From contig CAMLHQ010000120.1 of assembly GCA_946479785.1 (NCBI GenBank), positions 1 to 7,663 on the forward strand: 7,663 nucleotides of DNA. The letters are read 5' to 3'. The DNA comes from an uncultured Nitrospira sp. (GTDB lineage Bacteria; Nitrospirota; Nitrospiria; Nitrospirales; Nitrospiraceae). This document shows, piece after piece, positions 1 through 7,610 of this stretch. The translations under genes were made by a program, and so were the position numbers. Numbering within the stretch: position 1 is the stretch's first letter; each line of letters begins with the position of its first letter. The notes beneath the pieces were generated by a model, which saw only the letters and a program-made list of their open reading frames with translations, ran no database searches and was not told where the DNA came from.

Positions 1-380
1 GAGAGGACGGGCGGCCGGAAGGAACCATCGGATAATCCGCCGCGGCTGTCGCCGGACGATTGAGGCTGGACTTTCATAGTTTGACCTAGCAGCCTAGGCC
101 TTCCTGCGCGGAGCGGTTTCGAGCGCCTCGGGAAGGGACCTTGATTCAACGATTCCAATTCATTCAGTGACGCGCGGACGGCTCGCGCAATCATCCAAGC
201 CAGTGTGAGCCCCGGAGTCCAATACACGGCATCCCGCATTTGCTCGGCAAGATGAGAGGGCAGATTGACTGTCAGGCGAACCATGCGGGGTTTGACTTCC
301 GTCTCTCGCAGAATCTGCTTCCCGTTGACGTGGAGGTGGAGCGTATTCTCCCCGGTGGTACGGCGTGTCGTTATCGACAT
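1..380 (-). CDS. Ribbon-helix-helix (CopG/ParD-like) DNA-binding protein, 3' end outside window
   Basis: Reading leftwards from ATG at 380-378, the frame stays open for 126 codons to the window edge, so the stop is not seen. Residues about 34-76 have a ribbon-helix-helix layout: a beta strand (VRLTVNLP) followed by two helices. The second helix region contains the AVYWTPGLTLA motif (residues 51-61), followed by a basic GPFPRR...RAGRPR segment (81-96). From memory, this combination marks a family of small RHH proteins often found in accessory DNA; the family name is not certain. A strong Shine-Dalgarno AGGAG lies 7 nt upstream of this ATG. In-frame ATGs at 398 and 395 are less likely because the Shine-Dalgarno would lie inside the gene. 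Related proteins, as I recall them, end soon after GRP; here about 30 low-complexity residues follow. RHH proteins bind DNA as dimers and often autoregulate, as antitoxins or plasmid-copy regulators. No toxin is visible in the window; any partner would lie off the left edge. Confidence 0.72.
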   Translation of the reverse strand, partial: MSITTRRTTGENTLHLHVNGKQILRETEVKPRMVRLTVNLPSHLAEQMRDAVYWTPGLTLAWMIARAVRASLNELESLNQGPFPRRSKPLRAGRPRLLGQTMKVQPQSSGDSRGGLSDGSFRPPVL

Positions 381-384
381 AGGT

Positions 385-392
385 TTTCTCCT
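385..392 (-). promoter_or_regulatory. Ribosome binding site of the RHH gene
   Basis: On the minus strand the sequence GATGAGGAGAAAACCT precedes the ATG at 380. AGGAG is followed by a 7-nt spacer, which is near ideal. It selects this ATG over the two in-frame ATGs immediately upstream. Confidence 0.6.
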
Positions 393-467
393 CATCATGT
401 TGGAGTTGCTTCGATGGGCAGGGCAGCTGGCGATAACGAGAACGATCGATTCGTCCATGTCGGTTGA

Positions 468-905: not shown

Positions 906-1415
906 CTATTGGTGCAAGTGCTTCATCGCTGCTGCGCAGAGGATGATGAAGAATCCCATCCACAATGCAGCGCGTTGAAAGGGGATGACTTCGTACGACT
1001 CGCCCTCTTCTGCTTCATCGTCGGATTTGAAGATTACGGTATAAAGGAAGAGGGTGACGAGGCAGAGAACAAGGAACAACTTGATGAAAAAGACGGTGAG
1101 GTATTTCGCGTGGTGCTGAACCCCGGAACCGGTTTGTGACGTCAGGACTTGGTTGACATAATGAAGGTTGATTCCCCCTGTAAACAACAGCACGACGAGT
1201 AGAATGCCGGCCACCTTCTTGTAGTGCTGATAAAAGACATCAGTGATCGGCTTAATCTGTTCCTTTGCCACGGCCTTCTGTAGCCCCGGCGTGACAGCCA
1301 TGACCAAAAACGCAAGGCCGCCGATCCAAATGACCGCGGACAGCAGATGAAACCAATGGTTTATGATCGGGATGAGTGTATTGAGATCGGTAACAATGCT
1401 TTGAAGAGCGTCCAT
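906..1415 (-). CDS. CopD-like four-helix membrane protein, probable heme or metal binding
   Basis: This 169-residue integral membrane protein has four predicted transmembrane helices at about residues 13-41, 66-88, 104-129 and 147-164. The first helix carries the HWFHLLSAVIWIGGLAF signature (from H20) seen in CopD-domain proteins. That fold is shared with copper-resistance CopD and resembles, at a distance, the heme-binding HemJ family. Possible axial or metal ligands are H20, H23, H64, H85, H101, H102, H166 and H168. The acidic loop at about 131-141 (SDDEAEEGES) is soluble. The protein is far shorter than full-length CopD, so copper import is not established. ATG at 1415 has a modest site (CAGGA, 9 nt spacing). 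The gene lies 52 nt downstream of the NirJ/AhbD-like radical SAM gene on the same strand and is probably the last gene of that cluster. A role in heme handling or membrane electron transfer is inferred from context; a generic uncharacterised membrane protein is the alternative. Confidence 0.8.
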   Translation of the reverse strand: MDALQSIVTDLNTLIPIINHWFHLLSAVIWIGGLAFLVMAVTPGLQKAVAKEQIKPITDVFYQHYKKVAGILLVVLLFTGGINLHYVNQVLTSQTGSGVQHHAKYLTVFFIKLFLVLCLVTLFLYTVIFKSDDEAEEGESYEVIPFQRAALWMGFFIILCAAAMKHLHQ

Positions 1416-1432
1416 CGTGACTAGTCCTGCAG

Positions 1433-1453
1433 GCTGAGGGCCGAGTGCTGAGT
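1433..1453. repeat. Degenerate heptamer array (GCYGAGK x3)
   Basis: Three consecutive 7-bp units, GCTGAGG, GCCGAGT and GCTGAGT, fill part of the 52-nt gap between the radical SAM gene and the CopD-like gene. A similar 7-bp periodic array occurs at 5139-5166. It looks like slippage-derived spacer DNA. Confidence 0.55.
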
Positions 1454-1467
1454 GACGCTCATCGCCG

Positions 1468-2853
1468 CTAAGTTTTGAAGACCGGCGCGTCGTTGCCGAA
1501 TCGCTTCTTGCGCAATTCTTCCATCAGCTCGATCGTGACCGTCGAAATGCCGTTCTCGCGGGCATGCTTTTCGACACCCTTCTTCACCATCGCGCGGAGA
1601 AAATAGGGGATGCGGCTCAGTCGCAAGGACGAAGCTTCATCCCACTCGACTTCAGATTCTTCCTGAACGTTGAAGGCGACTTTGATCCTGGCGCCGCCTT
1701 TCGGGGTATAGAGGCACCACTGATCTTCATCCAGCCAATCGCCGTGGTCCACATAGGGACGGGCGCGACAGCCGCCGCAGATGTCGGTATATTCACAGTC
1801 TCCGCACTTGCCCTTGAGTTGGGGGTAGCGGAAGGAATTGAAGATGTCCGATTTTTCCCAGAGGTCTACAAAACTGTTTTCGCGAATGTTGCCGGCTGAG
1901 AGCGGCATGTAGGGACAGGGCGTCAGTTCACCGTTCGGCGTCACCCGGGCGTAATTCGTACCGGCGAGGCAACCGCCGCCCATATAGCCTGTCGCTTTCG
2001 TAATCGGCGAATTCGGGTCTTTCTCATAGGCCAGTCGCTTGAAGTGCGGCGCGCAGCGGGCGCGGACCAGCATGCCTTTGTAATTGTCCTGGCAGTTGAC
2101 GAGGTAACCGAGCACTTCTTCGTACTGCGCCGGTGTGATGTCGGTCAGTTCTTCGCCGCGGCCTGTGCAGACCATGAAGAAGACGTTCAAGACGCGCGCG
2201 CCGAGGCCATGAGACCATTCCACGACGGCGGGAAGCTCCTGATAATTCATCGGCTGGGCGCTGAAATGCACTTGGAACTGCAGTCCGTTGCGTTTGCTGG
2301 CTTCGATACCGGCCACGGCTGCTTCCCAGGCTCCAGGTACACCGCGGAAGGAGTTATGCTTGGCCGGATCAAGTGAGTCGATGCTGATGCCGACGCCCAT
2401 GACACCGATCTCGACCAGGGTCCTGGCCATCTGATCATCGATCAACATGCCGTTTGTCCCGAAGACGACCATGAAACCGAGCGTCACGGCATGGCGGGCC
2501 ACGTCGAGGATGTCCGGTCGTACCAGCGGTTCACCGCCGGTAATGACAAGAAGGCAGCCCTTGTTGACTTCGGCGATCTGATCAATGAGACGGAAACATT
2601 CTTCGGTCGAAAGTTCATCATCGCCGCCCGCTGCTTTGGTAGTCGCATCGAGGTAGCAATGGTCGCACTTGAGATTACAGCGCTTGGTCAGGTTAAGCGC
2701 GACAAGGTAGGGCTTGAAGTCGTCGACCGTCCGTCCGTCGTACGGACCTTCGCCCTGCGGAGCAGGCGTAAAGAACTGCGTGATCTGCTGTTGAAACGAT
2801 CCGAGCGCTCCCGGTAAAGACGGGATGTTCAGGATCGGCAGCGATTTTCCCAT
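1468..2853 (-). CDS. NirJ/AhbD-like radical SAM/SPASM protein with C-terminal PCP_red-type domain
   Basis: This 461-residue cytoplasmic radical SAM enzyme contains the [4Fe-4S] motif C59-x3-C63-x2-C66 within NLTKRCNLKCDHCYLDA, and the SAM-binding GGEP at 106-109. ISIDS (157-161), HNSFRG (166-171) and GRGEEL (231-236) match the NirJ/AhbD pattern. Auxiliary-cluster cysteines of the SPASM region include C267, C295, C313, C350, C353, C359, C362 and C380, with CGGCRAR at 359-365. Known relatives remove or modify propionate side chains of tetrapyrroles (heme d1 synthesis, or Fe-coproporphyrin III to heme b). Residues about 402-450 (WDEASSLRLSRIPYFLR onward) form a PCP_red-type helical module, named after a protochlorophyllide reductase subunit. 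ATG at 2853 was chosen because it overlaps the previous gene's stop as TGATG and gives the usual family N-terminus. An in-frame extension to 3390 is only the shifted reading of that gene. The exact substrate cannot be decided from sequence; a peptide-modifying SPASM enzyme is less likely. Confidence 0.9.
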   Translation of the reverse strand: MGKSLPILNIPSLPGALGSFQQQITQFFTPAPQGEGPYDGRTVDDFKPYLVALNLTKRCNLKCDHCYLDATTKAAGGDDELSTEECFRLIDQIAEVNKGCLLVITGGEPLVRPDILDVARHAVTLGFMVVFGTNGMLIDDQMARTLVEIGVMGVGISIDSLDPAKHNSFRGVPGAWEAAVAGIEASKRNGLQFQVHFSAQPMNYQELPAVVEWSHGLGARVLNVFFMVCTGRGEELTDITPAQYEEVLGYLVNCQDNYKGMLVRARCAPHFKRLAYEKDPNSPITKATGYMGGGCLAGTNYARVTPNGELTPCPYMPLSAGNIRENSFVDLWEKSDIFNSFRYPQLKGKCGDCEYTDICGGCRARPYVDHGDWLDEDQWCLYTPKGGARIKVAFNVQEESEVEWDEASSLRLSRIPYFLRAMVKKGVEKHARENGISTVTIELMEELRKKRFGNDAPVFKT

Positions 2854-4949
2854 CAGTGACTGGCCCCGGACTTGGCTTTGCCGGTGAGGTTGGCGATCAT
2901 GTCTTTGAGGTTGCCGGTCTTCATGGCCTCTTCCATGTAGCCCTTGGCCTGCTCGATCCCTTCGTTGGCCACTTCCAACGTGATGAGGGTGGTGCCGATC
3001 TTGTCTGCATGCTTGATGATCAGCGCCTTCGTGCAGTCCCGCATGAATCCTTCCGGTGCACGATCCAGCCTCGCTTGGGCATCGGTGGTCCAGGTATAGG
3101 GGGGGGCTTCGGCCTGGTCGTTGCCATTTCCATTGCCGTTCTCGTGGGTGCCGTTGCCGTTGGCGGCTGCCAACTTCACTTCGGCTTCTGCGGATGTTCC
3201 GGCTCCCTTGTTCGCGAAAATCGGCTGATAGTCTTCTGAAGCGGCCTCTTTGATCATGGGGGCGGCATATTCCAGCGTGATCGTGGTCATTCCGAGTTTG
3301 CGCGCGGTCTTTTCGATCTTGGCTTTGGCGCGGCGGCGCTGGAATCCGGCCGGCACGGCACGGATCGCTTCCTTCGCGTCCTTCGTCCACTGCATCGGCA
3401 CATCGTCGTAGGCCAGATCGGTTTCAACCCCGCCTTCCGCCTTCGCGGCTGCTTCAAAGATGCTCTTGTCGACCTGTTTGAACCGGGCCCCTTCCGCACC
3501 GCACACCGGGCACTTCACCGGCGTGTCGCCCTTGCCGATGTACCCGCAGCCGTCGCAGACGAAGTAATTCTGGGTCATCCGATCCAGGTAGGCCTGAGTG
3601 CCTGCACTGACGGTCGGTTTTTCTTCCACGATTTCGGTCATCATGCCGCTGAGCGTCGAGCCCATGAGGTCCTTCGCCACGGAGTCGTCCGCTTGCATCT
3701 TGTCCCGATTGATGCCGGCGGCCTCCAAGCTGCCTCCCAGTGCGCGCATCGCGTCCATCGCGCCCTTAGGGAGAATGTGGCCAACGGCCGCATCCACGAC
3801 CGTGTTGCTGATGATCGTATGGCCCTTTTCGATCGCATACCGGTGGATCGCCGTTTTCGCGACGCCGCGCGCGAAGACGGGAATCTTCTCCATCCGGCGA
3901 AGCGCCTCTTCCGTCCAGGCGATAGTGTATTCGGCTTGTGTATCAATGGGCGGCACGTACTTGCGATTGGAAACGAGCACATTGCATGGCGCACTGCGCA
4001 GCAGGTTTTCGGTGTTGCTGCCGATGTCCATGTCCTCGTCGCTATGCACACCGATGCGGCCGACAATCAGGAGGGCCGGGACATCCTTGCGGACGTATTG
4101 AATAATCTTTTCGAAGGCCTTGCCATCCAATAACGTCGTTTTGACGTCCGTTTGCTCGGCCTGGGCGATTTCGCGGGAGATATCCAAGTGCGACTGATAG
4201 ATCTTGGCCAAGCCGCTGTCGATGATTTCTTCGTGGAGTTTTTCCTGCTCCTTAAAGCGGAAGACCTTGCCCGCTTCTTCATTCAAGACGCCGGAAATGC
4301 TGTGGAATGCGGCGTAGTGGAAGTAGGGATCAAAGGCTGAGATCGCCTCGACCGGCATGTTCAATGCCTTGCCGAGCTGGAGCCCGGTCATCAATCCGCC
4401 GAACGAGTAGGGGCTGCCGTCCACCGCCACGACGATCTTGCCACCATTGAAGGGCTGAGTGTTCTTGATGATCAGCATGTCGGAGTTGCGGACGCGGCGT
4501 ACAACGCGCTCGGTGTTGCTGCCGATCACACTGTCCTTGACCGCCCCGACGCCCAAGGCACCCATGATGACTAAGTCATACGCATTGGTATTGATGTCTT
4601 CGGCCAGAACTTTCCAATTGCGTCCTTCGAGCGAACGCCGTTCAATCGGTAAGTTGGCCTCATTGCACTTTTTATCGACGTAATCGAGGTAGGAGTCCGT
4701 GATGATCTGAAGTCCGCGGGTAATCAGCGAATCGTGGATCTGACGTTGCCGGTCGAGTTCCTTCTCGTCGTGGTATTCCTCGGGTAGGCCCGCCTCCATC
4801 TGCTTGAAACGTTTATCGTGCATTTTGGCCGCATAGACATGGCTGCCCACGATCTTGGAGCCGAACAGTTTGGCCATATGGACGCCGACGTCCACCGCGG
4901 TGTTCGAATGGTCGGAATTGTCGACCGGAATATAGATAGTCTTATACAT
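2853..4949 (-). CDS. Tandem universal stress protein fused to rubredoxin-like and three PCP_red-type domains
   Basis: This is a 698-residue multidomain protein, whereas ordinary UspA proteins have about 140-300 residues. UspA domain 1 spans about 1-163 and domain 2 about 170-328. Both keep the ATP-binding pattern G-x2-G-x9-G-S (G130/G133/G143-S144 and G297/G300/G310-S311), so nucleotide binding is likely. A PCP_red-type module follows at about 343-390 (WTEEALRRMEKIPVFAR), then a rubredoxin-like metal knuckle at 463-492 (C465-x2-C468, C480-x2-C483). Two further PCP_red-type modules lie at about 520-570 and 618-670, separated by an Asn-Gly-rich linker (596-611). No signal peptide or membrane helix is evident, so it should be cytoplasmic. 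ATG at 4949 has a strong GGAGGAGG site 7 nt upstream. The stop overlaps the next gene's start as TGATG, implying translational coupling. A role as an ATP-sensing redox or cofactor-carrier partner of the radical SAM enzyme is inference. The C-terminal half is the unusual part; the USP calls are firm. Confidence 0.9.
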   Translation of the reverse strand: MYKTIYIPVDNSDHSNTAVDVGVHMAKLFGSKIVGSHVYAAKMHDKRFKQMEAGLPEEYHDEKELDRQRQIHDSLITRGLQIITDSYLDYVDKKCNEANLPIERRSLEGRNWKVLAEDINTNAYDLVIMGALGVGAVKDSVIGSNTERVVRRVRNSDMLIIKNTQPFNGGKIVVAVDGSPYSFGGLMTGLQLGKALNMPVEAISAFDPYFHYAAFHSISGVLNEEAGKVFRFKEQEKLHEEIIDSGLAKIYQSHLDISREIAQAEQTDVKTTLLDGKAFEKIIQYVRKDVPALLIVGRIGVHSDEDMDIGSNTENLLRSAPCNVLVSNRKYVPPIDTQAEYTIAWTEEALRRMEKIPVFARGVAKTAIHRYAIEKGHTIISNTVVDAAVGHILPKGAMDAMRALGGSLEAAGINRDKMQADDSVAKDLMGSTLSGMMTEIVEEKPTVSAGTQAYLDRMTQNYFVCDGCGYIGKGDTPVKCPVCGAEGARFKQVDKSIFEAAAKAEGGVETDLAYDDVPMQWTKDAKEAIRAVPAGFQRRRAKAKIEKTARKLGMTTITLEYAAPMIKEAASEDYQPIFANKGAGTSAEAEVKLAAANGNGTHENGNGNGNDQAEAPPYTWTTDAQARLDRAPEGFMRDCTKALIIKHADKIGTTLITLEVANEGIEQAKGYMEEAMKTGNLKDMIANLTGKAKSGASH
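3099..3106 (-). other. Run of eight C in the USP-fusion gene
   Basis: On the coding strand eight consecutive C (codons GCC CCC CCC) lie just before the last PCP_red-type module (AEAPPYTW). The tract is a candidate slippage site. A -1 frame shift here would enter the frame that is open all the way into the radical SAM gene. Confidence 0.7.
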
Positions 4950-5173: not shown

Positions 5174-6805
5174 CTAACCAGCTGAAGTGGCGTGAGATTC
5201 AGGCCGATGTCGTGGTGATGCTGACGTAGAAGGCCGTCGCGATCTAAGAATTTCTTCGAGCGAAAGGAGCGCATCCCGTCCTGAGTTACCTTCAATCCCT
5301 CGGCTCAGGCTCTTGTCGGCATAGGAATCTTGGGGCTTAGTCGTTTGAGAGAGGGATCCTGTCCATTTTCTGGGGTCTCGGCTGCCTTCTTTTCGTTCCC
5401 ACGCTCGGAGACAAGCCTTCGCAATGAACTTGTTGAGGGGTGCGGGGTTGTAGAGGAGTTTCCGAATGCTGGAGGGGGTCAACATTAGCGGGTTGTAGCC
5501 GGCTGAAAGGTAACCTTCTTCAAGAAGGCGTTGTTCGAGATCGGTGTTGGGCTGGATGCCGAGAAAAAACATCAACGGAAAGACACGCTCTTCGCCGAGG
5601 ATGGACGCGACTTTTTTATATGATTCCACGCTTTGCAGCAGAGACTCTTCCGTCTCTTTCGGACTATTGAGTGAGTAGTTCAAGATGACCTTGCCCTTGA
5701 AGCCAGCCTCGGCCAGGTAGCGACAGCCATCATAGAGCCGCTCCAGCTTGAACCCCATATGGAGATTATTGAGGATCTCCTGCGAGCCGGAGGTGATGGC
5801 CACTTCAAGATCGCCGACACCGGACCGAACCATCAGCTTCGCCAACTCAGGTGTAATCAAGGAGGTCCTGATGTAGCCGGACCACTCGATCTCCATCTTT
5901 TCGCTGACGATCCGTTCCAGGATTTCCGTGCATTGAGGATAGGCCTCCTTGCCGGTAATGAACTGCGCGTCGGTAAACCAGAAGCGCCGGGCACCCCACT
6001 GATGGTAATGCTGGGCGATATCTTTGACGACCATTTCGGCCGGCCGATAGCGCACACGTTTGCCTTCAATATAGGGATAGAGACAAAAGGCGCAGTCATA
6101 GGGGCAGCCGCGCTTCGACTGCACGCCGATCGATTCACTTATGTATTCGCGATATTGCGGGAAAATCGAGGTGAGATAGGGCAGATCCACCGTCAGCGCG
6201 TCAAGCAGCGCCGGGGAACCCTGACGGCCTTTCCTGATCTGTTGCCCTTCTTTCATGATGTAGCGCTCGTCTTCAATCGACCGGCCCTCGATCACTTTTA
6301 AGATCGCATCTTCACCTTCTCCCAAGAGACCAATGGTCCCTTCCGGTAGTTTCTCGATGAGTTGGTCCGCGAAGGCTGTGAAGGCCCCGCCTCCGATCAT
6401 GATCTGCGCCTTGGGAAATTCCTTTCGGATCAACCAGGGGTAGGACAGGATCGTATAGATGTGGCTGTAGTAGCGGTAGAGCTGCTTCAGTCCCGCGAAT
6501 GAAGCAGCGATCCGCTTGATGGGATTGCTCGCGAAATAAAAATTGAACGCATGCTCCAGAGAGGAATCGCCCTCGTGGGGCGAAAAGATTTGAATATCGC
6601 GCCACGAGAAGCAGACCAGGTCCGGTTTGAAGTCGGTCGCGACATCTCGTATCGCCTGGCTCCGTTGCGAAACTGGATACAACGACAGATCGAGAATACG
6701 CTGGCGCACGTCCGGCTTGCGCCGATGGATGAAGTCCGCCAAGTAGGTCACCCCGATGGGATAGACGGTCTTGCAGGGGAGGAAGATGTAGAGAATGGAG
6801 TTCAT
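5174..6805 (-). CDS. B12-binding-domain radical SAM protein
   Basis: This 543-residue protein has a class B (cobalamin-dependent) radical SAM layout. The N-terminal Rossmann-like B12-type domain (about 1-175) shows PIGVTYLADF (16-25), PDLVCFSWRD (61-70) and MIGGGAFTAF (136-145). The usual DxHxxG motif is missing; the equivalent place reads DLSLYP (39-44), so cobalamin, if bound, would lack the lower-axial histidine. The radical SAM core starts at C234-x3-C238-x2-C241 (KRGCPYDCAFC), followed by WFTDAQF (276-282) and a family-type end near LRAWERKEG (466-474). An insertion of about 40 residues rich in aromatic and basic residues (77-117) sits inside the B12 domain. The last 70 residues are Ser/Arg-rich and look unconserved. 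ATG at 6805 follows the ubiE stop by 7 nt, with only a weak GAAG-type site, so coupling is likely. Known relatives methylate or rearrange lipids, pigments and natural products. A quinone or lipid substrate is suggested by the neighbour but not shown. Confidence 0.87.
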   Translation of the reverse strand: MNSILYIFLPCKTVYPIGVTYLADFIHRRKPDVRQRILDLSLYPVSQRSQAIRDVATDFKPDLVCFSWRDIQIFSPHEGDSSLEHAFNFYFASNPIKRIAASFAGLKQLYRYYSHIYTILSYPWLIRKEFPKAQIMIGGGAFTAFADQLIEKLPEGTIGLLGEGEDAILKVIEGRSIEDERYIMKEGQQIRKGRQGSPALLDALTVDLPYLTSIFPQYREYISESIGVQSKRGCPYDCAFCLYPYIEGKRVRYRPAEMVVKDIAQHYHQWGARRFWFTDAQFITGKEAYPQCTEILERIVSEKMEIEWSGYIRTSLITPELAKLMVRSGVGDLEVAITSGSQEILNNLHMGFKLERLYDGCRYLAEAGFKGKVILNYSLNSPKETEESLLQSVESYKKVASILGEERVFPLMFFLGIQPNTDLEQRLLEEGYLSAGYNPLMLTPSSIRKLLYNPAPLNKFIAKACLRAWERKEGSRDPRKWTGSLSQTTKPQDSYADKSLSRGIEGNSGRDALLSLEEILRSRRPSTSASPRHRPESHATSAG

Positions 6806-6812
6806 CGTACGT

Positions 6813-7610
6813 TCACTTCACTGCGACGTGGATGGCGACAATGCCGCCGGTGAGATTCTTATACCTGACGTCGCGGAAGCCGGCCTCGCGGAGGACTTGG
6901 CAGAGCCGTTCCTGATCAGGAAACGTGCGGATCGAGGCAGGCAAATATTCGTACACGCCCGTGGTGTCGTGGGCGACTTTCGTGCCGATCCAGGGCAGCA
7001 GCCTGAACGAATACCAGTCATAGAGCGCGCGGAGCCAGCCAAAGACAGGACGGGAAAATTCCAGGCAGACGAACGTGCCGCCCGGCTTCATCACGCGGCG
7101 GATCTCGCCGATGGCCTGAGCGAGGTTCCCGACATTGCGCATGCAGAAGCCGGTCGTGACGGCATCGAACGTATTGTCGTCGAATCCGAGATGCTCCGCG
7201 TTGGCTTGCAGGCAGGTGATCTTACCGGTCAGACCCTTGCTATCGACCTTCTTCAACCCTTCGGCCAGCATCGCGTGATTCAGATCTGAAGCGATTACCC
7301 GTCCCTTGGCCCCCATATGAGGCTCCACTAACAGCGCAAGGTCCGCGGTGCCAGCTCCGACATCGAGCGCCATGCCCTGTTCAACCACCGGAACCAATGC
7401 AGCGGTGATGTTCTTCCAACGGTAGTGAAGACCAAAGCTCAACAGGGTATTGTTCAGATCATACACGCCGGCGATGGCAGTGAACATCCGCTGCACCGCC
7501 TGTTCACGTGCGGAGCCCGACCACGTCGAAATTGCGCGGGCTTGGGCATCCTGCGTTCGCTGCTCAGTCACAGATTCCCTCATTAAGAGCATGGGCATGG
7601 GTGGTAGCAC
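6813..7610 (-). CDS. ubiE: UbiE/MenG-type demethylmenaquinone (or quinone-ring) C-methyltransferase
   Basis: SAM-dependent class I methyltransferase that adds the ring C-methyl group in menaquinone synthesis and, in some bacteria, ubiquinone synthesis. It acts at the inner face of the membrane. Family signature one is nearly complete: Y50-D51...N54...S58-x3-H62-x2-W65 (YDLNNTLLSFGLHYRW), with N in place of the common M. SAM motif I is LDVGAGTAD (82-90), the acidic ribose contact is SDLNHAML (108-115), and NAEHLGF (137-143), CMRNV (156-160) and RVMKPGG (172-178) complete the fold. Length (265) is close to the usual 230-255 residues. The start is uncertain: the first codon used is GTG at 7610 with a weak GAG-type site; ATGs at 7598, 7592 and 7583 lack one. 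The frame is open to the window edge. If the organism is Nitrospira, which relies on menaquinone, menG would be the more apt name. It appears to be first in a pair with the B12 radical SAM gene. Confidence 0.93.
   Translation of the reverse strand: MLPPMPMLLMRESVTEQRTQDAQARAISTWSGSAREQAVQRMFTAIAGVYDLNNTLLSFGLHYRWKNITAALVPVVEQGMALDVGAGTADLALLVEPHMGAKGRVIASDLNHAMLAEGLKKVDSKGLTGKITCLQANAEHLGFDDNTFDAVTTGFCMRNVGNLAQAIGEIRRVMKPGGTFVCLEFSRPVFGWLRALYDWYSFRLLPWIGTKVAHDTTGVYEYLPASIRTFPDQERLCQVLREAGFRDVRYKNLTGGIVAIHVAVK

Follow-up and report, generated by a model that had tools for sequence, protein, structure and literature searches.

The 7,663-nucleotide stretch analysed here in full, called the window below, is contig CAMLHQ010000120.1 of an uncultured Nitrospira sp. 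Its five larger genes are all minus-strand genes. Listed from the first to the last transcribed, they encode the methyltransferase MpqE, an slr0320-like B12 radical SAM protein, a Universal stress protein (USP) fusion, a radical SAM/SPASM enzyme and a CopD/DUF4149-like protein. A preliminary description, made from the sequence alone, had presented the last three genes as a unit built around repeated PCP_red domains. We found that the repeated domains and the gene unit are real and strongly conserved in Nitrospira, and that the enzyme belongs to a clade of radical SAM proteins, here called the PCP clade, which is sister to AhbD and has a partner protein of its own, the USP protein. The features of the three genes are as follows.

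2853..4949, minus strand: USP fusion, 698 residues, with the domain order USP, USP, PCP_red, rubredoxin-like, PCP_red, PCP_red
4485..4949, minus strand: USP domain 1 of the fusion, residues 1-155, glycine motif G130..S144 (Pfam, alignment)
3969..4448, minus strand: USP domain 2, about residues 168-327, glycine motif G297..S311 (second PF00582 stretch, limits from alignment)
3786..3917, minus strand: PCP_red copy 1 of the fusion, residues 345-388 (Pfam)
3477..3563, minus strand: rubredoxin-like site, residues 463-491, with C465, C468, C480 and C483 (Pfam, alignment)
3240..3392, minus strand: PCP_red copy 2, about residues 520-570 (Pfam stretch, limits from the preliminary description, homologous copies)
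2940..3098, minus strand: PCP_red copy 3, about residues 618-670 (Pfam stretch, limits from the preliminary description, homologous copies)
1468..2853, minus strand: radical SAM/SPASM enzyme of the clade sister to AhbD, 461 residues, ending in PCP_red (Pfam and NCBIfam profiles, tree)
2656..2679, minus strand: radical SAM cluster motif CX3CX2C of the enzyme, C59, C63 and C66 (sequence, motif scan)
2167..2169, minus strand: Cys229, conserved in the PCP clade, Pro in the AhbD clade
1714..2055, minus strand: eight-cysteine SPASM motif from C267 to C380, starting with CAPHxxR at residues 267-273 (motif scan, alignment)
1510..1644, minus strand: PCP_red module at the end of the enzyme, residues 404-448 (Pfam)
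906..1415, minus strand: small CopD/DUF4149-like membrane protein, 169 residues (open reading frame, weak profile matches, profile comparison)

The repeated segments were confirmed as PCP_red modules by a Pfam profile search, which matched PF08369 (cut-off 32.5 bits) in both proteins. The USP fusion scored 109.6 bits (E = 7.2e-32), and its three stretches each pass alone, the best being residues 345-388. In the enzyme, residues 404-448 scored 51.3 bits (E = 1.2e-13). Models of DPOR subunit B match the PCP_red regions of both proteins with their C-terminal end. Among solved structures, the DPOR chain 2xdq_B is matched by enzyme residues 395-445 (E = 1.1e-5). A single copy from the fusion, used as query, retrieved only the nuclear magnetic resonance entry of PCP_red, 2kru, with a non-significant E-value of 1.4. 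The equivalog model of DPOR subunit B (TIGR01278) was matched by the tail domain only, at 61 bits against a cut-off of 490. In the structure model of the enzyme, which is of mediocre quality (pLDDT 67.3), PCP_red is predicted to form three helices (residues 406-414, 417-433 and 441-452); this model and that of the USP fusion (pLDDT 60.8) are too weak to position PCP_red relative to the active site.

The USP part of the fusion matched PF00582 in two stretches at 110.6 bits (cut-off 24). Both domains carry the motif G2xG9xGS, which we take to be the ATP-type glycine motif, and its residues are invariant in 24 sequences, all of them close relatives with 87-94% identity. The four cysteines of the rubredoxin-like site are invariant in these 24 sequences and show the spacing CX2CX11CX2C, the Pfam score (PF21349, 25.9 bits) being slightly below the cut-off of 26.5. 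USP proteins are mostly regulatory. The fusion may exert control that depends on ATP or redox state.

The enzyme contains a Radical_SAM domain (79.2 bits) and a SPASM domain (40.4 bits) according to Pfam. Among the NCBIfam models, NirJ2 (TIGR04055, 320 bits), AhbD (TIGR04545, 307 bits) and TIGR04053 (263 bits) rank highest, all under their cut-offs (500 for both NirJ2 and AhbD), and NirJ, NirJ1 and AhbC score about 170 bits each. The earlier label of a NirJ/AhbD-like enzyme thus holds at the level of the family, but no AhbD, NirJ2 or NirJ cut-off is passed. A d1-like product, also proposed earlier, is not favoured, since NirJ (TIGR04051) reaches 171 bits against a cut-off of 515. A maximum-likelihood tree of 39 rows, comprising Nitrospirota sequences and the window after exclusion of the fragments L166 and L196, placed the window enzyme in a PCP clade of 17 rows (support 97/96), next to an AhbD side of 18 rows (97/92), with the AhbC rows outside both under midpoint rooting. 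The enzyme therefore falls in the sister group of the AhbD clade and not inside it, with the caveat that long branches meet in this tree and its deep joins are tentative.

A full SPASM motif, CX20-33CX17CX36-37CX2CX5CX2CX17-35C, has been described for part of the AhbD proteins (PMC10452713). The window enzyme fits it as C267-X27-C295-X17-C313-X36-C350-X2-C353-X5-C359-X2-C362-X17-C380; these spacings were read directly, the greedy match of the script having started at C254. By script, the motif fits each of the 16 remaining full-length members of the PCP clade. Together with CX3CX2C, this preserves the cysteine layout for three clusters seen in AhbD. We then compared conservation, at a threshold of 95%, in 42 rows of the PCP clade (16 loci, the window and 25 selected protein-search matches), 16 of the 18 AhbD-side rows (without L185 and L188) and four AhbC rows. 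Across the PCP-clade and AhbD-side rows, 47 core positions reached this threshold with the same residue on both sides. They include CAPHxxR, whose C and H are replaced by I and Y in all four AhbC rows. Five positions are conserved but switched between the PCP clade and the AhbD side (N54/E, Y67/R, G132/A, C229/P and D377/E).

A second enzyme, on the AhbD side of the tree (L186:3583-4971 and L187:990-2378), likewise ends in a PCP_red match. Its L186 version scores 489 bits to AhbD (cut-off 500). Either this enzyme family has thus acquired the module on several occasions, or intervening lineages have lost it.

Gene order was inspected in the best 80 of 485 loci encoding a relative of the enzyme, labelled Nitrospira, Nitrospiraceae or Nitrospirae/Nitrospirota, and in one case uncultured Nitrosospira. 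Counterparts in named Nitrospira share up to 93% identity with the window enzyme. Where the contig left room to see, the radical SAM gene was preceded by the USP fusion in all 76 Nitrospira-type loci and followed by the CopD-like gene in 75 of them (exception L075), so the three genes are indeed neighbours. The whole five-gene order of the window recurred in 57 of the 61 loci long enough to show it (exceptions L034, L058, L066 and L075). Further away, the trio dissolves: among 17 more distant Nitrospirota loci, a USP protein adjoins the enzyme gene in 16, the remaining locus (L137) ending about 590 bases past the enzyme gene, whereas the CopD-like gene is found in just three (L163, L164 and L190). 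The conserved core is therefore the pair of USP and radical SAM genes, not the trio. The partner is a protein with tandem USP domains, to which PCP_red and a rubredoxin-like site are added in Nitrospira. The TGATG overlap, in which the stop of the USP fusion and the start of the enzyme share one base, is present in the window, but among 76 related loci only 27 show such an overlap, and gaps of 35-114 bases separate the genes in the remaining 49. Coupling by overlap is thus not conserved.

The distant loci also vary in where PCP_red is placed. No PCP_red match was found on the USP partner in L141-L144. In L190, a separate protein with four PCP_red copies is encoded between the enzyme gene and the membrane gene. 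In L131-L133, the enzyme itself has four PCP_red copies and is followed by HemY (290-305 bits, cut-off 97.85), which is the next gene in all three loci of this array-bearing group (G011, G052 and G057).

The membrane protein is less clearly assigned. With 18.7 bits to CopD (PF05425, cut-off 32.1), it remains below the cut-offs of both CopD and DUF4149 in Pfam, and the likeness is weak. The preliminary description had suggested membrane heme handling or oxidation, and HemJ was considered as a specific candidate on account of a motif resemblance. The HemJ model TIGR00701 gave 11.7 bits against a cut-off of 138. In profile comparisons with hhalign, the membrane protein matched generic CopD-like proteins with a probability of 98.3% and these matched HemJ with 89.7%, but the direct comparison with HemJ yielded 2.8%, and the HemJ matches (PF03653) in genomes G001 and G002 belong to other genes. 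A HemJ-like role thus has no direct support, and the data point to a distant superfamily link only. A role as porphyrinogen oxidase is suggested only by HemY, which fills the same slot in three loci.

In order to place the enzyme within heme synthesis, we mapped HemN, HemH, HemY, PF06778 (ChdC and relatives), HemF, AhbC, HemE and AhbD in 148 Nitrospirota genomes. The tally was compiled by hand and excludes the fragment G024 and G141. HemN was counted only over its cut-off. The ChdC class comprises PF06778 matches of at least 188 bits, an assignment by score class in a family that covers chlorite dismutase too, and AhbD-like genes are TIGR04545 matches with E-values up to 1e-65 minus PCP enzymes and AhbC. 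HemN (32 genomes) and AhbD-like genes (69, some of them in the tree) are mutually exclusive, occurring together in none of the 148 genomes. This fits AhbD-like genes as the terminal decarboxylase in those genomes. Completion of the coproporphyrin route by AhbD has already been described for some organisms (PMC7242693). Gene order in four loci (L151, L152, L153 and L192) shows an AhbD-like gene without PCP_red directly before hemE, with hemH behind and hemY in three of the four. The mutual exclusion of HemN and AhbD-like genes points to a widespread hybrid of the coproporphyrin route and AhbD.

The PCP enzyme behaves differently. It was counted in 52 of the 148 genomes, its PCP tail not being confirmed individually in all of them, and 48 of the 52 hold another candidate for the terminal decarboxylase (ChdC class, HemF, HemN or AhbD-like). 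No second candidate was counted in G015, G041, G057 or G107; the PF06778 matches of G107 are fragmentary. The enzyme does not take over from HemN as AhbD-like genes appear to do, since it coexists with HemN in G011, G052 and G133; AhbD-side genes accompany it in 11 genomes. It thus fills no gap, and an alternative route to heme b is not required. The alternative heme proposed as ligand in the preliminary description is affected accordingly: membership of the AhbD/NirJ family makes a tetrapyrrole the natural candidate, but the alternative heme b route is not needed.

Tetrapyrrole chemistry of the enzyme is likely in view of its family, and the conserved enzyme-USP pair appears to be a so far uncharacterised system for handling porphyrins alongside normal heme synthesis. 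A literature search confined to open-licence PMC papers found no description of the unit. We propose, with a probability of roughly 45%, that it represents an accessory, oxygen-independent tetrapyrrole-modifying system in which AhbD-like chemistry acts on a coproporphyrin-type macrocycle and PCP_red serves as a porphyrin-handling or docking module. We favour this proposal because the curated models rank NirJ2 and AhbD (320 and 307 bits) far above NirJ, NirJ1 and AhbC, because the AhbD SPASM motif and CAPHxxR are kept while five positions are switched, and because the USP partner is adjacent in 76/76 and 16/17 loci. It is also favoured by the position of HemY as next gene in all array-bearing loci, by the PCP_red tail of the AhbD-side enzyme, and by the coexistence with another decarboxylase in 48 of 52 genomes, unlike the mutually exclusive HemN and AhbD-like genes.

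In such a system, a 5'-deoxyadenosyl radical would abstract hydrogen from a propionate side chain of the macrocycle, and the electron would exit via the auxiliary clusters of the enzyme. The clade-specific changes, Cys229 foremost, might move substrate or product away from plain conversion of coproheme to heme b. The PCP_red modules would bind the porphyrin or hand it on, or serve as docking sites for proteins with that task. Regulation dependent on ATP or redox state could come from the USP protein, which might also supply electrons, and the membrane protein, or HemY in another lineage, could carry out a linked oxidation or membrane step.

Several points weigh against this proposal. We infer tetrapyrrole binding by the enzyme or the PCP_red modules from sequence. 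The best solved Foldseek matches of the enzyme model (BlsE, PqqE, SuiB, SkfB and anSME) are mostly peptide enzymes. The PCP_red module may serve assembly more generally, because it also occurs near an iron-sulfur carrier ATPase and in a gene run with a bd-oxidase-like gene (see below). Finally, the absence calls in the genome tally are soft, as genome completeness was not stated and the initial scan was limited, the enzyme of G141 having been missed at first.

The alternative that survives best, though we consider it unlikely, is a backup heme b synthase, an oxygen-independent counterpart of the oxygen-dependent decarboxylase ChdC in Nitrospira that would make heme b from coproheme when oxygen is low. 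The 38 Nitrospira-type genomes contain HemE in 38, HemY in 38, HemH in 32 and the ChdC class in 35; of those without the full ChdC class, G107 has fragments, G121 and G133 have HemF, and G133 alone has HemN. The ChdC class occurs in 35 of 52 genomes with the PCP enzyme versus 2 of 96 without, a contrast not corrected for shared ancestry, and the AhbD SPASM and CAPHxxR motifs are retained. In Haloferax volcanii, AhbD and PitA (ChdC) divide the work (PMC5746218), which would be a parallel. Such a synthase would, however, be redundant beside HemN or AhbD-side genes where these co-occur, its five switched positions are unlike AhbD, and HemY, oxygen-dependent too in known cases, would still be required. 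Moreover, the ChdC call underlying the co-occurrence is by score class.

Rather improbable, in our view, is a SPASM maturase acting on a peptide, protein or other non-tetrapyrrole substrate, with PCP_red as a mere docking helix module shared with the USP partner. The solved SPASM structures closest to the model, mostly of peptide or small-molecule enzymes, the occurrence of PCP_red on very dissimilar proteins and the regulatory nature of most USP proteins speak for it. Tetrapyrrole enzymes nevertheless head the curated-model ranking, AhbD-specific motifs are retained, PCP_red also tails the AhbD-side enzyme, and HemY follows in three loci; a small precursor gene was not noticed in the window, where no systematic search for one was made. 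Two further readings were not retained: a missing heme b decarboxylase, deduced from absent HemN, fails on the ChdC-class and AhbD-like matches and the coexistence counts except as the Nitrospira backup just described, and a sole AhbD in genomes with the siroheme route (AhbC present; HemE, HemH and HemY absent) applies to just G015 and G041 of seven, since G005, G009, G010, G019 and G028 carry another AhbD-like gene.

PCP_red extends well beyond this unit. N. moscoviensis, N. defluvii and isolate UBC2 have 12 copies per genome, 11 of which exceed the cut-off in each. Other Nitrospira carriers are a cysteine-pair protein beside a NUBPL-type iron-sulfur carrier ATPase, an array protein with four passing stretches, and a small protein whose neighbours are DUF420 and an O-methyltransferase; a bd-oxidase-like gene belongs to the same gene run. 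In N. moscoviensis, L145 and L147 hold the PCP_red genes by the NUBPL-type ATPase and by DUF420/O-methyltransferase. Among the matches listed in a protein profile search (the best 120 of 7868), PCP_red-tailed relatives of the enzyme come from the anammox bacteria Candidatus Brocadia, Loosdrechtia, Scalindua, Brocadiaceae and Brocadiales. The named anammox relatives are longer than the window enzyme (569-679 versus 461 residues). Five proteins of about 800 residues (P0241-P0245) have two radical SAM and two SPASM stretches each, the PCP_red-tailed enzyme being fused to a second one, which in P0241 is TIGR04053 (476.5 bits, cut-off 395), hinting at consecutive steps. A tetrapyrrole-methylase domain in P0242 and relatives was dismissed as spurious; it is below cut-off and overlaps the second radical SAM domain.

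A trait study (PMC12815261) counts PF08369 as one of the Pfam families related to phototrophy that are most prevalent. By itself it is no marker of phototrophy, as the Nitrospira and anammox proteins would count as false positives, and PCP_red, hitherto tied to chlorophyll synthesis, gains a likely wider role. For the bacteria with the coproporphyrin pathway that PMC10965808 covers, the paper describes an oxygen-independent equivalent of ChdC as unknown. The PCP clade is a concrete candidate for this job in Nitrospira, or else it hints that nitrite oxidisers and anammox bacteria make a tetrapyrrole not yet recognised. A bolder version, which we regard as a long shot, would make PCP_red a general porphyrin carrier and have the PCP_red-tagged AhbD-sister enzymes, which have USP/rubredoxin partners in Nitrospirota and relatives in anammox bacteria, produce a novel modified heme or tetrapyrrole for the unusual respiratory enzymes of nitrogen-cycle bacteria, by a new type of radical SAM side-chain chemistry that employs Cys229.

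As to the neighbouring genes, methyl-plastoquinone methyltransferase MpqE (6813-7610) scored 407.8 bits (cut-off 335), and the slr0320-like protein (5174-6805) 450.9 bits, below the cut-off of 775; the name of the latter model refers to photosystem II high-light acclimation. Their conserved adjacency (57/61 loci) suggests a quinone-related role in a non-phototroph. At the window edge, an open-ended reading frame (3-458, minus strand) may encode a small DNA-binding-type protein.

Among the closest known systems, AhbD shares with the enzyme the Radical SAM domain, the full eight-cysteine SPASM spacings, CAPHxxR and the 47 conserved core positions. The enzyme differs from it in its subthreshold score, its place in a sister clade, its C-terminal PCP_red, Y67, C229 and three further switched positions, and its occurrence alongside AhbD-like and HemN genes. 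NirJ2 is the top NCBIfam match, but its cut-off is missed and the enzyme has a PCP_red tail; NirJ of heme d1 synthesis belongs to the same superfamily, with a score far from its cut-off. HemJ is tied to the membrane protein remotely, via generic CopD-like proteins, and is unlike it in direct comparison. HemY (TIGR00562) occupies the slot behind the enzyme in G011, G052 and G057, but has no kinship to the CopD-like membrane protein of the window. With DPOR subunit B, the unit shares the C-terminal PCP_red module itself (PF08369; PDB 2kru, 2xdq), but here the tail domain stands alone, repeated and grafted onto other proteins.

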